From Microbacterium hominis (lineage in GTDB: Bacteria; Actinomycetota; Actinomycetes; Actinomycetales; Microbacteriaceae), in NCBI RefSeq assembly GCF_013282805.1, contig NZ_CP054038.1, positions 1,488,001-1,552,000 of the forward strand: a stretch of 64,000 nucleotides of DNA, given 5' to 3'. The notes beneath the pieces were generated by a model. That model searched no databases. It had not been told where the DNA came from and saw only the letters and a program-made list of their open reading frames with translations. The position numbers and the translations under genes are program-made. Shown piece after piece: positions 12,784 to 16,905 of the stretch (its first letter is position 1; every line of letters starts with the position of its first letter).

Positions 12784-13370
12784 CCGACGGCCCCGCCTCC
12801 GATCCGCGGCCGCGTCCGCAGTACGGCGAGTACGCGACGCCCGAAGAGCAGCGCGCCCGCATCCAGCAGCCGGACGTCACCGCGGCGCTGGACACCGGCC
12901 AGGTGGCCGACGCCGCGGCCCCGGTTGCAGCACAGGTACCGGCGCCGGCTCCCGCACCGGCGGTCGTCGACGAGCCCCCGGCACCTGTGCGCTCCCGCGG
13001 GCGCAGCGTCGACCGCATCGCCACCTTCGCGCTGCTCGCCTACGGCCTGATCAACGTGGTCACCTCTGTCCCGGCGTTCCTGGACTACTTCGCCTACGCG
13101 GACCTGATGTTCCAGACCCTGGGGGTCGACGCCGTGCTGTCCGACCCCGCCGGTGCGCGAGGCTGGGGGATCGCCGCAGCGGGTGTGCTCGCGATCGGAT
13201 GGATGCTGGTGGCCTGGCTGTCGGTGGCGAGTCTGCGCCGCGGACGCCTCAGCTGGTGGATCCCGCTGGTCGGCGGCGTGGTGTTCACCGTCGTGGCCGG
13301 GATGCTCATGGTGGTTCCGCTCATGACGGACCCGGCCGTGTGGGCGGCCCTGGTCGTCGGCGTGGGCTGA
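12780..13370 (+). CDS. DUF6264-like membrane protein
   Basis: 196 residues. A hydrophilic Pro/Ala-rich N-terminus ([14 protein letters not shown] near 16-29) precedes three or four TM helices from about residue 78. I associate this pattern with Microbacteriaceae proteins annotated DUF6264; the name is from memory and tentative. It is translationally coupled to ispH (GTGA overlap) and convergent with the DUF2231 gene, 10 bp away. No function can be assigned. Confidence 0.6.
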
Positions 13371-13380
13371 GCTGGGGGAA

Positions 13381-13884
13381 TCAGCCTCCGACGACGGGCC
13401 CCCACACGGCACGGGCCCCTGAATCGCCGATGAGCGCGAGCACGACCATGGCTCCCACACCGACGAGCACGGCGAGCACGGCGATGACCACCGTCACCGC
13501 CCTCGCCCCTCCCGGCGACCGCTTGCCGACGTCGTCACGCCAGTAGCGGTACCAGAGCCATTGCCCCGCGGCGACGACGAACAGCCCGATGGCCCACGGC
13601 AGGAACATGCGTCCCAGGGCCTCATGGCGCTCGACCGACGGCAGCGGCCCGACGATCTCCTTCAGCGCAGCCCCGGCCTGTACGGTGACCGGGACCAGGA
13701 TCAGCACGACGAGCGCCCCGAGTGGGGTCACGATGCCGAGGCGGCCGCGCGCTGCGGGCCAGAACGTGCCGAGGAGCAGGGCGAGCACCGTCAGCGGCGT
13801 CAGGATGACGACCGCGTGGACGATGAGCGGGTGCAGGGGCAGTCCCGCGATCTCGAAAGCGCCGGCGGATCGGATCTGGTCCAT
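13381..13884 (-). CDS. DUF2231-like membrane protein, probable ECF-sigma target
   Basis: 167 residues, four TM helices. The N-terminal segment AGLPLHPLIVHAVVILTPLT carries the HPLIVH pattern of DUF2231 proteins. ATG 13884 lies 6 nt from the end of an ECF-type -10, so it is probably transcribed leaderless from a promoter that mirrors the sigma gene's own. This couples it to the sigma/anti-sigma system. Molecular function unknown. Confidence 0.75.
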   Translation of the reverse strand: MDQIRSAGAFEIAGLPLHPLIVHAVVILTPLTVLALLLGTFWPAARGRLGIVTPLGALVVLILVPVTVQAGAALKEIVGPLPSVERHEALGRMFLPWAIGLFVVAAGQWLWYRYWRDDVGKRSPGGARAVTVVIAVLAVLVGVGAMVVLALIGDSGARAVWGPVVGG

Positions 13885-13890
13885 ACTCGT

Positions 13891-13918
13891 GACACGAGAC
13901 GGCGCCGCGTCCGGTTCA
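13891..13918 (-). promoter_or_regulatory. ECF-sigma promoter for the DUF2231 gene
   Basis: On the minus strand: -35 TGAACC (13918-13913), 16-bp spacer, -10 CGTGTC (13896-13891), then 6 nt to the ATG. The two hexamers equal those I recall for mycobacterial SigL promoters. Confidence 0.75.
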
Positions 13919-13920
13919 AC

Positions 13921-13948
13921 TGAACCGCCGATCGATCCGTCTCGTGTC
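13921..13948 (+). promoter_or_regulatory. ECF-sigma autoregulatory promoter
   Basis: -35 TGAACC (13921-13926), 16-bp spacer, -10 CGTGTC (13943-13948), then an 18-nt leader with GGGAGG before ATG 13967. It is the exact mirror of the divergent promoter: arms CCGTCTCGTGTC/GACACGAGACGG and CGGTTCA/TGAACCG are perfect inverted repeats with equal 9-nt gaps. Confidence 0.78.
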
Positions 13949-13966
13949 CTCAGCGGGAGGTGAAGG

Positions 13967-14473
13967 ATGCCGCGCGACGATGCCGCACGCCTGACGGCGC
14001 TGTATGACGCCCACGCGGCGCCGGTGTGGCGGTACGTGGTCCATCTGACCGGAGACCGCGCCGGCGCCGATGACATCGTGCAGGAGACGCTGCTGCGCGC
14101 CTGGCGGTCCGATCGCATCCTGGATCAGGATCCCGCCACGGCACGCTCGTGGCTGTTCACCGTCGCCCGGCACCTCGTGATCGACGAAGTGCGAAGCGCC
14201 CACCACCGTCGGGAGATCGCCGTCGCCGAGACGCCGGACTCCGAGACGGCCGACGCCACCGACGTGCTGTTCGAGACCATGCTCATCGAGGAGGCGCTCG
14301 CCGGGCTGTCCGACGATCACCGAGGGGTGATCGTGCGCGCCTATTACGGGGCGCTCACCGTGGCCGAGATCGCGGCCGAGCTCGGCATCCCCCCGGGGAC
14401 GGTCAAGTCCCGACTGCATTACGGAGTCCGTGCCCTGCGGCTGGCGCTGCAGGAGAAAGGAGTGACGCGATGA
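13967..14473 (+). CDS. ECF RNA polymerase sigma factor (SigL-like)
   Basis: 168 residues. Region 2 (about 10-75) contains DDIVQETLLRAWR and WLFTVARHLVIDEVR. Region 4 (about 110-160) contains EEALAGLSDDHRGVIVRAYY and the helix-turn-helix AEIAAELGIPPGTVKSRLH. The gene is followed by a zinc anti-sigma gene with a 4-bp ATGA overlap. The autoregulatory promoter TGAACC-N16-CGTGTC suggests a SigL-type specificity. The inducing signal is probably membrane or redox stress, an inference from the anti-sigma. Confidence 0.93.
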   Translation: MPRDDAARLTALYDAHAAPVWRYVVHLTGDRAGADDIVQETLLRAWRSDRILDQDPATARSWLFTVARHLVIDEVRSAHHRREIAVAETPDSETADATDVLFETMLIEEALAGLSDDHRGVIVRAYYGALTVAEIAAELGIPPGTVKSRLHYGVRALRLALQEKGVTR

Positions 14474-15198
14474 CACCCGATCACGCGCACTTCGTCGAAT
14501 GGGACGCCGCGTACGTGCTCGGCGCGCTCAGCCCCGCCGACAGGCGCGTCTACGAGGAGCATCTCGAGCGATGCGGCGTCTGCCGCGCCGCCATCGCGGA
14601 GATCGCGGCGACGACGGGGCTGCTGACCCGCATCGATCCCGCCCGCGCGCGATCGATGATCGACGCACCGGAGGACGCGGGCGGACCCGACGAGTCCCGG
14701 CGCGCGGAGATCATCGAGCTCGGCGTGCTCCAGGCCCGCCGGCGGCGGCGCCTGACGTGGACAGGGCTGGCGTCGGCGGCCGCTGCCGTGATCGTCGCGG
14801 TGGTGCTGGCGGCGACTCTGGCGATCGCGCCGACGACGCAGCGCATCGAGGTCATCGCCCTCGAGCCGACGCGGGAGCTCCCGCTGACCGCGACCGTCGA
14901 ACTCGTCGACGTCTCGTGGGGCACGCGCATCGAGATGATCTGCCGCTACACGGGAGACGGCGAAGGGTCCCCCGAGGGCGGCTGGCCTTATGCGCTCTAC
15001 GTCGCCGGCGCCGACGGCACCTTCACCGAGGTCTCCAGCTGGCGGGGGCTGCCCGGTCGGGACGCCCGCGTCAGCGCGGGGACGGCCTTGGACTCCGACG
15101 AGATCTCCGCCCTCGAGGTGCGGTCGCTCACCAATGGCGACGTGCTGCTGCGCACCGATCGCGAGGTCGCCGACGGCGCCGCTCTGAGCGAAGACTGA
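14470..15198 (+). CDS. Zinc-binding membrane anti-sigma factor (ZAS/RskA-like)
   Basis: 242 residues. The cytoplasmic N-terminal anti-sigma domain carries the ZAS motif H-x3-C-x2-C (His31, Cys35, Cys38 in HLERCGVC). One TM helix lies at about 97-120. The extracytoplasmic C-terminal domain (VSWGTRIEMICRY onward) resembles anti-sigma-K C-terminal domains. It should bind and hold the co-encoded sigma factor; redox-sensitive zinc release is family knowledge. Its stop codon lies inside the -35 of the next promoter. Confidence 0.9.
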   Translation: MTPDHAHFVEWDAAYVLGALSPADRRVYEEHLERCGVCRAAIAEIAATTGLLTRIDPARARSMIDAPEDAGGPDESRRAEIIELGVLQARRRRRLTWTGLASAAAAVIVAVVLAATLAIAPTTQRIEVIALEPTRELPLTATVELVDVSWGTRIEMICRYTGDGEGSPEGGWPYALYVAGADGTFTEVSSWRGLPGRDARVSAGTALDSDEISALEVRSLTNGDVLLRTDREVADGAALSED

Positions 15199-15223
15199 AC
15201 CGAACCGCGCGCTGTCTCGTGCC
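15196..15223 (+). promoter_or_regulatory. Third ECF-type promoter, upstream of the lipoprotein
   Basis: -35 TGAACC (15196-15201, overlapping the anti-sigma TGA), 16-bp spacer, -10 CGTGCC (15218-15223). One mismatch to the two promoters upstream, and it shares their GTCTCGTG context. Confidence 0.7.
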
Positions 15224-15229
15224 CCCTGT

Positions 15230-15246
15230 GACCGCACGGTGCGGTC
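15230..15246 (+). repeat. 17-bp palindrome in the lipoprotein leader
   Basis: GACCGCAC-G-GTGCGGTC, a perfect inverted repeat at the expected transcription start of the lipoprotein gene. Possible operator or 5' mRNA structure. Confidence 0.45.
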
Positions 15247-15266
15247 GCACCTGGAAGGGACACGCA

Positions 15267-15800
15267 ATGACCACGAAACTCGCGAGGATCGCCCTCGCCA
15301 CCGCAGTGCTCGCCTTCGCCCTCGCCGGCTGCACGTCGCCGCCCGCCGACGACACGTCCACCGACACCGACACGGGGACCTCACAGGAGGCGGAGGACAC
15401 GACGACGGAAGACGAGGGGACCGACGACTCCGGCGATGCCGCCGGCGAAGCCGAGCTCATGGTCGCCGAGACCTCCCTGGGCGAGGTCGTCGTCGACGCA
15501 GACGGCATGACCGTCTACATGTTCGACAACGACACCCAGGACTCCGGCGTGAGTTCCTGCGAGGGACAGTGCCTCGAGAACTGGCCGCCCGTGACCACCG
15601 AGAGCGACGCTCCCGCGGTCGACGGCGTGTCCGGTGAGGTGGGCACGATCACCGGCACCGACGGATCGACGCAGGTGACCCTCAACGGCTGGCCGCTGTA
15701 CTACTTCATCGGCGACGAGGCCGCCGGCGACGTGAACGGCCAGGCCGTCAACGACGTCTGGTGGGTGCTCACCCCCGACGGCGAGCGGTTCGCCGGCTGA
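15267..15800 (+). CDS. Lipoprotein with Yx(F/W/Y)xxD-type secreted repeats (COG4315-like)
   Basis: 177 residues. A lipoprotein signal peptide has lipobox ALAGC (Cys22). An acidic Thr/Asp/Glu linker follows to about residue 65. Two copies of the secreted-repeat motif come next (MTVYMFDNDT and PLYYFIGDE), with a CEGQC Cys pair between them. The ribosome binding site is GGAAGGGA. Its promoter matches the ECF consensus, so it is probably a structural target of the sigma factor beside it. The family's function is unknown; an envelope redox or stress role is a guess. Confidence 0.85.
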   Translation: MTTKLARIALATAVLAFALAGCTSPPADDTSTDTDTGTSQEAEDTTTEDEGTDDSGDAAGEAELMVAETSLGEVVVDADGMTVYMFDNDTQDSGVSSCEGQCLENWPPVTTESDAPAVDGVSGEVGTITGTDGSTQVTLNGWPLYYFIGDEAAGDVNGQAVNDVWWVLTPDGERFAG

Positions 15801-15812
15801 CGCCAGGGAGGG

Positions 15813-15865
15813 CGATGGATGCCGCGGCGGCGGCCCGACAAGGGCCGCGGTCGCGGCATCCATCG
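15813..15865. terminator. Bidirectional terminator between lipoprotein and fba
   Basis: A 14-bp perfect outer stem (CGATGGATGCCGCG with CGCGGCATCCATCG) plus an inner CGGCCC/GGGCCG stem, between convergent genes. Confidence 0.8.
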
Positions 15866-15873
15866 GTTCGGGG

Positions 15874-16905
15874 TCAGGCCGCCAGGCTCTTGCCGTGCGA
15901 GCCGAGCTGCTGCGTCGCCTCGACCACGCGGGCGGCCATGGCCGACTCGGCCACCTTGCCCCAGGCGCGCGGGTCGTAGGCCTTCTTGTTGCCCACCTCG
16001 CCGTCGAGCTTCAGCACGCCGTCGTAGTTGGCGAACATGAAGCCGGCGATCGAGCGGGTGAAGGCGTACTGCGTGTCGGTGTCGATGTTCATCTTGACGA
16101 CGCCGTTGGCCACCGCGAGGGCGATCTCCTCCTCGGTCGAGCCGCTGCCGCCGTGGAAGACGAGGTCGAGGGGCTTCGGGCCGGTGCCGAACTGCGCGGC
16201 GATGCCCTCCTGGATCTCCCCGAGCAGCTCCGGGCGCAGCTTGACGTTGCCCGGCTTGTACACGCCGTGCACGTTGCCGAAGGTCAGCGCCGAGATGTAG
16301 CGGCCGTTCTCGCCCAGGCCCAGGGCCTCGACGGCCTTGGTCACGTCGGCGACCGTCGTGTAGAGCGCCTCGTTCGAGCCCTCGTGCTTGACGCCGTCCT
16401 CTTCGCCGCCGACGACGCCGATCTCGACCTCGAGGATCGCATTGATGTTCTTGATGCGGGGGAGCAGGTCCTTCGCGATCTCGATGTTCTCGTCGAGGGG
16501 CACGGCCGAGCCGTCCCACATATGCGACTGGAAGATCGGGTTGCGCCCGGCCTTCACCTCTTCTTCGGAGGCCTCCAGCAGCGGCAGCACGAAGTTCGGC
16601 AGCGCGTCCTTCGGGCAGTGGTCGGTGTGGAGCGCCACGGTGATGGGGTAGTTCTTGGCGACCTCGGTCGCGAACTTCGCGAACGCGATCGCTCCCGCCG
16701 CGCGGTTCTTGACGGTGTGGCCGGCGAAGTAGTCGGCGCCGCCGGTGGTGACCTGGATGATGCCGTCGGAGCCGGCCTCGGTCAGGCCCTGCAGCACGGC
16801 GTTGATGGTCTGCGAGCTGGACACGTTGATCGCGGGATACGCGAAACCGCCGGCCTTCGCGCGGTCAAGCATGTCGGCGTACTGCTCAGGGGTGGCGACG
16901 GGCAT
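15874..16905 (-). CDS. fba: Class II fructose-bisphosphate aldolase
   Basis: 343 residues; zinc-dependent cleavage of fructose 1,6-bisphosphate in glycolysis and gluconeogenesis. Metal and active-site segments are present: ALHTDHCPKD, GNVHGVYKPGNV, LVFHGGSGSTEE and NIDTDTQYA. AAGGAG lies before ATG 16905. A TAGAGT -10 lies about 53 bp upstream, so this gene is leadered. It is divergent from glpX, the gluconeogenic phosphatase acting on the same sugar phosphate. Confidence 0.97.
   Translation of the reverse strand: MPVATPEQYADMLDRAKAGGFAYPAINVSSSQTINAVLQGLTEAGSDGIIQVTTGGADYFAGHTVKNRAAGAIAFAKFATEVAKNYPITVALHTDHCPKDALPNFVLPLLEASEEEVKAGRNPIFQSHMWDGSAVPLDENIEIAKDLLPRIKNINAILEVEIGVVGGEEDGVKHEGSNEALYTTVADVTKAVEALGLGENGRYISALTFGNVHGVYKPGNVKLRPELLGEIQEGIAAQFGTGPKPLDLVFHGGSGSTEEEIALAVANGVVKMNIDTDTQYAFTRSIAGFMFANYDGVLKLDGEVGNKKAYDPRAWGKVAESAMAARVVEATQQLGSHGKSLAA

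Follow-up and report, generated by a model that had tools for sequence, protein, structure and literature searches.

A putative autoregulated SigL-RslA module with three dedicated promoters and two envelope targets in Microbacterium hominis

Our analysis of a 64,000-nt stretch of Microbacterium hominis DNA (the window) suggests that an ECF sigma factor of the SigL subfamily and its RslA-like anti-sigma factor form an autoregulated module with three dedicated promoters and two envelope targets, a DUF2231 membrane protein and a lipoprotein with PF03640 repeats. Judging from sequence, we put the probability of this reading at roughly 85%. A preliminary description of the same DNA had proposed that a SigL-type sigma factor controls itself, its anti-sigma factor and these two genes, and the proposal is supported here by the conservation of the motif TGAACC-N16-CGTGYC at all three positions. 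The features of the locus are given below; transcription starts are predicted at 7 nt after the -10 hexamer, a count taken over from the M. tuberculosis sigL promoter, where the best-working start on the published scaffold lies 7 nt after CGTGTC (counted from the accessible text of PMC6372665).

13381-13884, minus strand: DUF2231 membrane protein, 167 aa (PF09990, 34.4 bits, cut-off 26.4)
13884, minus strand: predicted transcription start of the DUF2231 gene, at the A of its ATG (leaderless), 7 nt after the -10
13891-13918, minus strand: putative SigL-type promoter of the DUF2231 gene, -35 TGAACC at 13918-13913, N16, -10 CGTGTC at 13896-13891
13919-13920, no strand: gap of 2 bp between the two -35 hexamers
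13921-13948, plus strand: putative SigL-type promoter of sigL-rslA, -35 TGAACC at 13921-13926, N16, -10 CGTGTC at 13943-13948
about 13955, plus strand: predicted transcription start of sigL, with a short leader GGGAGGTGAAGG and then ATG
13967-14473, plus strand: sigL, ECF sigma factor, 168 aa (NF007227, 218.6 bits, cut-off 202)
14470-15198, plus strand: rslA-like zinc-finger anti-sigma factor with one membrane segment (zf-HC2; M. tuberculosis RslA 3hug_B, E 2.4e-13)
15196-15223, plus strand: putative SigL-type promoter of the lipoprotein gene, -35 TGAACC at 15196-15201, N16, -10 CGTGCC at 15218-15223
about 15230, plus strand: predicted transcription start of the lipoprotein gene, at the first G of GACCGCACGGTGCGGTC
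15230-15246, plus strand: stem-loop GACCGCACGGTGCGGTC at the predicted 5' end of the lipoprotein mRNA
15267-15800, plus strand: lipoprotein with two PF03640 repeats, 177 aa (PF03640, 116.3 bits, 2 stretches)

Three promoter motifs at one locus

The three copies of TGAACC-N16-CGTGYC that had been reported earlier are indeed present, each with a 16-nt spacer, and the -35 hexamer of the third copy does start on the stop codon of the rslA-like gene (TGA, 15196-15198). Against the three copies found, 100 shuffled versions of the window average 0.03, and no shuffle reached three. At the scale of the genome, the search for TGAACC-N15-17-CGTGYC that had been proposed as a check, run over 3.9 Mb in one contig, returned six matches, three of them at the locus, against three for the reversed control pattern. 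With the spacer held at 16 nt and at most one mismatch allowed, the window's own genome has 33 sites against 7 control sites. Thirty of the 33 lie outside the locus; three of those came without a locus, hence 27 were examined, and 25 of the 27 fall within an ORF as drawn by a crude ORF caller. Since the outside sites mostly lie in ORFs, the recognisable regulon in this genome appears to be local and to consist of three promoters. A consensus scan of 13300-15900 for sigma-70-type promoters and intrinsic terminators gave none.

The sigma factor and its anti-sigma factor

The sigma factor scores above the curated cut-off of NF007227, which places it in the SigL subfamily; among proteins of solved structure, M. 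tuberculosis SigL is the best match (E 3.5e-50). The preliminary description had matched the hexamers to those of mycobacterial SigL, and for the sigma factor and the -10 this holds: in the available part of PMC6372665, M. tuberculosis SigL prefers CG-TGN-C/A-A-G and the sigL promoter scaffold begins with CGTGTC, while the -10 elements here are of the corresponding type CG-T-G-N-C/A, with CGTGTC at two sites and CGTGCC at the third. For the -35, however, we found no published counterpart. The likeness to M. tuberculosis SigL-RslA extends to the sigma family, a zinc anti-sigma factor with CxxC, the pairing of sigL with rslA and the CGTGTC -10 at sigL. M. tuberculosis SigL reads the -10 through His54 and Asp60 (PMC6372665, in the portion at hand), and these residues, counted on the alignment, correspond to Ser and Gln in our protein. 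Because the loop that reads the -10 is variable in the family, this substitution lowers the identity of detail and not the family membership. Judged by sigma sequence, the genomes of family f10 look mycobacterial; at their 14 loci the motif lies upstream of sigL in every case (13 with N16), and a second copy follows rslA in 11. The targets differ: a DUF2231 protein and a PF03640 lipoprotein here, the pks10 and Rv1139c promoters in the accessible account of M. tuberculosis.

The rslA-like gene overlaps sigL by ATGA, and its product carries HxxxCxxC together with the membrane segment. HxxxCxxC occurs at 140 of the 141 orthologous loci, and beyond the membrane segment exactly one cysteine is found in 140 of 140 anti-sigma proteins (Cys158 in the window, within WGT...CxY); this single exported cysteine is a possible sensor residue. 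In M. tuberculosis RslA, according to the available text of PMC2877774, oxidation leads to zinc release, a disulfide and loss of sigma binding. Among the features of a redox-sensing ZAS, only CxxC is seen here. Two exported cysteines occur in 5 of the 14 RslA-like proteins of the f10 relatives.

Conservation of the motif in orthologous loci

The set of 141 non-redundant sigL loci comprises 70 loci from family genomes, the best 80 of 237 further ones and the window, with ten duplicates dropped. We counted as conserved a motif with N16, at most two mismatches and CGT kept, with sigL within 200 nt. Had the motif been missing upstream of orthologous sigma genes, the preliminary description would have fallen by its own reckoning; instead, it is found in 72 of 141 loci, namely 56 of 80 in the best-80-of-237 set, 15 of 60 in the family-genome set, and the window. 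It is present at the DUF2231 position in 24 of the 33 loci where a DUF2231 gene lies next to sigL and divergent from it, and at the lipoprotein position in 31 of the 33 loci with a lipoprotein gene downstream of rslA, in keeping with both targets named earlier. With 200 permuted hexamer pairs, the mean numbers of loci at the sigL, DUF2231 and lipoprotein positions are 0.34, 0.07 and 0.19 and the maxima 6, 3 and 2. Other spacings are nearly empty at these positions in the same order: 13, 14, 15 and 18 nt give none, 17 nt gives 2, 2 and 1, and 19 nt gives 4, 0 and 0. Thus the sigma gene has a motif of its own that is conserved in orthologues well above the permuted level.

Counting against the model, the strict motif is absent within 200 nt of sigL in 69 of 141 loci, at the DUF2231 gene in 9 of 33 and at the lipoprotein gene in 2 of 33; four of the nine DUF2231 genes without the motif have a weaker candidate site. 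The motif fades farther out, with 1 of 16 class-level SigL relatives (family f25) carrying it near sigL. Seven Kribbella sigL loci (L177-L179, L181, L182, L184, L186) have no strict motif and no adjacent DUF2231 or lipoprotein gene; the sigL promoter of Kribbella may differ.

The back-to-back pair

The arms of the divergent region are as reported earlier: GACACGAGACGG at 13891-13902, 9 nt, CGGTTCA at 13912-13918, AC, TGAACCG at 13921-13927, 9 nt, and CCGTCTCGTGTC at 13937-13948, with 13918-13912 and 13921-13927 forming a perfect inverted repeat. Does the symmetry go beyond the hexamers? In the window, 8 of 16 spacer positions are mirror-identical, compared with a mean of 6.4 (sd 2.1) for unrelated pairs of sigL and DUF2231 spacers, 28% of which reach 8 or more. 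The value is within the range of unrelated pairs, so the spacer symmetry of the window is unremarkable, and we reject a special meaning for its full mirror symmetry. Same-locus spacers over all 15 pairs have a mean of 7.9 identical positions, somewhat above unrelated ones, and base composition may be the cause of this excess. The earlier characterization of a fully symmetric divergent promoter therefore stands in part: the inverted repeats are real, but what we see is mainly two ordinary promoters placed back to back, whose recurring part is the abutting -35 elements.

The gap between the two -35 hexamers is 2 bp in 9 of the 15 pairs, and in the remaining six it is 1, 3, 11, 13, 38 and 103 bp. 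The gaps of 1 to 3 bp come from Microbacterium, Agrococcus, Cryobacterium and Naasia, whose spacers are not alike. With the -35 elements of the window 2 bp apart and the predicted starts of its pair separated by 71 bp, a polymerase at one promoter should keep a second one from the other.

Could the abutting -35 elements have been selected as a switch, with DUF2231 output and sigL-rslA output competing? Such a switch would be an addition to the three-promoter reading and not a replacement for it. The recurrence of the 2-bp gap, joined by gaps of 1 and 3 bp in two other pairs, across four genera with different spacers speaks for it, all the more as a change in gap length would presumably leave each promoter's own spacing unaltered; the four wide gaps speak against it, and the remaining pairs may owe their likeness to common ancestry. 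E. coli bidirectional promoters are comparable in that one DNA stretch gives two divergent RNAs with possible competition between polymerases, but there a pseudo-symmetrical sequence binds polymerase both ways, whereas here we find two complete ECF promoters with abutting -35 elements (PMC12825309, as far as its accessible text goes). The same text describes basal bidirectional promoters of E. coli as too weak to compete, with competition arising on strong activation, which also weighs against the idea. On balance we consider a selected switch somewhat unlikely.

Predicted 5' ends of the target messages

The DUF2231 start codon of the window lies 6 nt after the -10, and an in-frame DUF2231 start lies 6-7 nt past the -10 in all 24 motif-bearing loci (ATG in 23, GTG in one). 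From this conserved distance a leaderless DUF2231 mRNA can be predicted rather strongly. In M. tuberculosis, 26% of the genes with a primary start are leaderless, according to the accessible part of PMC3898074. As for the protein, His18, His23 and His87 are invariant in 29 aligned sequences and could bind heme; a search for related solved structures found none.

The lipoprotein mRNA, on the other hand, should begin with a covarying hairpin, GACCGCACGGTGCGGTC in the window. Over 28 leaders, 88.6% of the cells are paired and 11 cells are changed on both sides; 0 of 500 shuffles were as high on both measures, and a slid alignment leaves 29-48% paired. These figures lean towards structure, since the alignment uses 28 of 31 leaders (L121, L185 and L033 were left out for want of a matching stem) and the rest were hand-trimmed, and kinship also favours it. 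Because the arms change sequence, for example to GGACC/GGTCC in L124 and L132, the covariation fits an RNA better than a DNA dyad. The single-sequence folding energy is ordinary (z -0.66), and a comparison with Rfam gave no match at E up to 1. At L185 the lipoprotein start codon lies 6 nt after the -10, and the mRNA there may be leaderless and lack the hairpin.

The lipoprotein matches SCO0930_lipo NF040526 with 132 bits, far under the cut-off of 275. CxGxC is invariant in 20 aligned proteins, and a search for related solved structures found none that was convincing.

Do the targets follow SigL across genomes?

The lipoprotein is present in 30 of 70 SigL-positive family genomes and in 2 of 65 SigL-negative ones (Fisher 1.2e-8, kinship ignored). 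The negative set consists of the 65 genomes whose sole ECF match was a weaker one; the 63 genomes that gave no match lie outside it, as does G130, with a split SigL match. The SigL-positive genomes hold 33 lipoprotein matches, 30 of them with a locus, and the motif lies upstream in 20 of the 30; for lipoprotein genes classed by coordinates as unlinked to sigL it is found in 4 of 8. Neither of the two copies in SigL-negative genomes has the motif, and over the 32 loci together permuted hexamers average 0.25 and never exceed 5. In 26 SigL-positive genomes picked for having no lipoprotein gene at the locus, a whole-protein search found no lipoprotein, while two positive-control genomes matched. 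DUF2231 is present in 6 of those 26, in two of them at the sigL locus. Bare genome-wide counts of the motif we reject as proof of a regulon, because matches occur in 51 of 65 SigL-negative genomes as well as in 67 of 70 SigL-positive ones.

These distributions also bear on whether the promoters, though real, might be read mainly by another ECF sigma factor, with SigL as passenger or partner. At least one further ECF-like match is encoded in the genome, and the available excerpt of PMC4821874 mentions that in M. tuberculosis the sites of SigL, SigE and SigH overlap; but the lipoprotein follows SigL across genomes and its copies in SigL-negative genomes are without the motif, and we hold this possibility to be very unlikely. 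Even less credible is that the mirror block is the operator of a dimeric transcription factor, its sigma-like hexamers a by-product of the dyad: the perfect inverted repeat and the frequent 2-bp gap invite this thought, but we reject it because the third copy is single and one-sided, because N16 and a -10 are retained in both halves even where the gap is 11, 13, 38 or 103 bp, as in four pairs, and because spacings of 13, 14, 15 and 18 nt have no matches.

SigL-type sites at other genes in relatives

Having favoured SigL as the sigma factor that reads these promoters, we can ask what else may lie behind its motif in relatives. The divergent ORFs at sigL (37 scanned of 58) include 9 DUF2231, 8 Rieske, 3 PF03640, 2 YceI and 2 FMN_bind proteins, but these families show the neighbourhood of sigL and not control by SigL. 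In three Microbacterium genomes (L194, L197, L201) a SigL-type site is followed by an FMN_bind-like lipoprotein gene and then apbE; FMN_bind scores 20.6 and 16.7 in two of them, under the cut-off of 22 bits, and gave no match in the third. Two genomes have a SigL-type site ahead of an unlinked PF03640 gene, and L308 and L309 have one ahead of a Rieske gene. At L309, a SigL-type site and then a CHRD-domain gene lie upstream of sigL, and the Rieske gene stands behind another site after rslA.

Nine loci (L190, L215, L225, L226, L227, L231, L238, L239, L308) have a four-helix membrane protein of about 130 residues behind a SigL-type site. The protein gave no Pfam match in the six members scanned (eight were aligned) and is a candidate SigL regulon member in relatives. 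At L225-L231, chosen by eye among the matches listed, the genes for a dehydrogenase-like protein and a CDP-alcohol phosphatidyltransferase have a common pair of SigL-type sites in face-to-face order, and the predicted 5' ends overlap by 9-34 nt in six of the seven loci. A 6-pyruvoyl tetrahydropterin synthase gene follows this pair at L229. Altogether 18 regions were chosen by eye among the matches listed, so they are illustrative and give no rate; a likely target is present in 11 and none in the other seven (L232-L235, L240-L242). Downstream of rslA in the f10 family, four of the five loci opened (L300-L303) have a SigL-type site and behind it a gene for a TPP-type enzyme; the enzyme family was scanned for L301 only.

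Discussion

How would the module work? By analogy with M. tuberculosis RslA, we expect that RslA holds SigL. Once released, SigL with RNA polymerase would read TGAACC-N16-CGTGTC, leading rightward from 13921 to more sigL and rslA, leftward from 13918 to a leaderless DUF2231 mRNA, and from 15196 to a lipoprotein mRNA that starts with the hairpin. With the divergent -35 elements 2 bp apart, two polymerases would presumably not sit there at once.

What the targets do is the weakest step of our reading. Several motif-bearing genes encode exported redox proteins, and M. tuberculosis RslA is redox-sensitive (PMC2877774, accessible part), which leads us to guess that SigL targets serve electron transfer or redox repair in the envelope. 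We hold this tentatively, at a little short of even odds; the dehydrogenase, the CDP-alcohol transferase and the TPP enzyme have no obvious fit to such a role. Exported redox proteins are also what the extracytosolic flavinylation clusters of Actinobacteria (FMN_bind, ApbE, MsrQ-like) have in common with this picture. However, flavinylation genes are absent beside sigL in the window, so the link is through the promoter motif in relatives only, and the available text of the flavinylation paper PMC8238504 mentions no sigma factor.

A bolder generalization, which we think unlikely as a whole, is that SigL-RslA has long served actinobacteria as an envelope-redox switch whose target cassettes can be exchanged. 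It would sense oxidation through CxxC and the exported cysteine of the anti-sigma factor, and its output ratios would be set by promoter geometry. The cassettes would then be DUF2231, the PF03640 lipoprotein, Rieske, FMN_bind/ApbE, the four-helix protein and the pair of dehydrogenase-like and CDP-alcohol phosphatidyltransferase genes. The geometry would be one in which SigL promoters interlock in either order, back to back or face to face, and exclude each other; the mRNA of one side would be leaderless, and the one made downstream would carry a hairpin cap.

Autoregulation by SigL-RslA is of a known kind. In open-licence PMC papers we found no description of the present targets and promoter layout, and no paper there that brings DUF2231 or COG4315 together with 'sigma factor'.

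More generally, our results point to a conserved module in soil and plant bacteria that would tie DUF2231 and PF03640, both of unknown function, to a sigma factor that, in a relative, has a redox-sensitive inhibitor. Sharp predictions follow from the distance of the start codon, the hairpin at the 5' end and the gap of 2 bp, and control by SigL would give these little-known envelope proteins a testable role.
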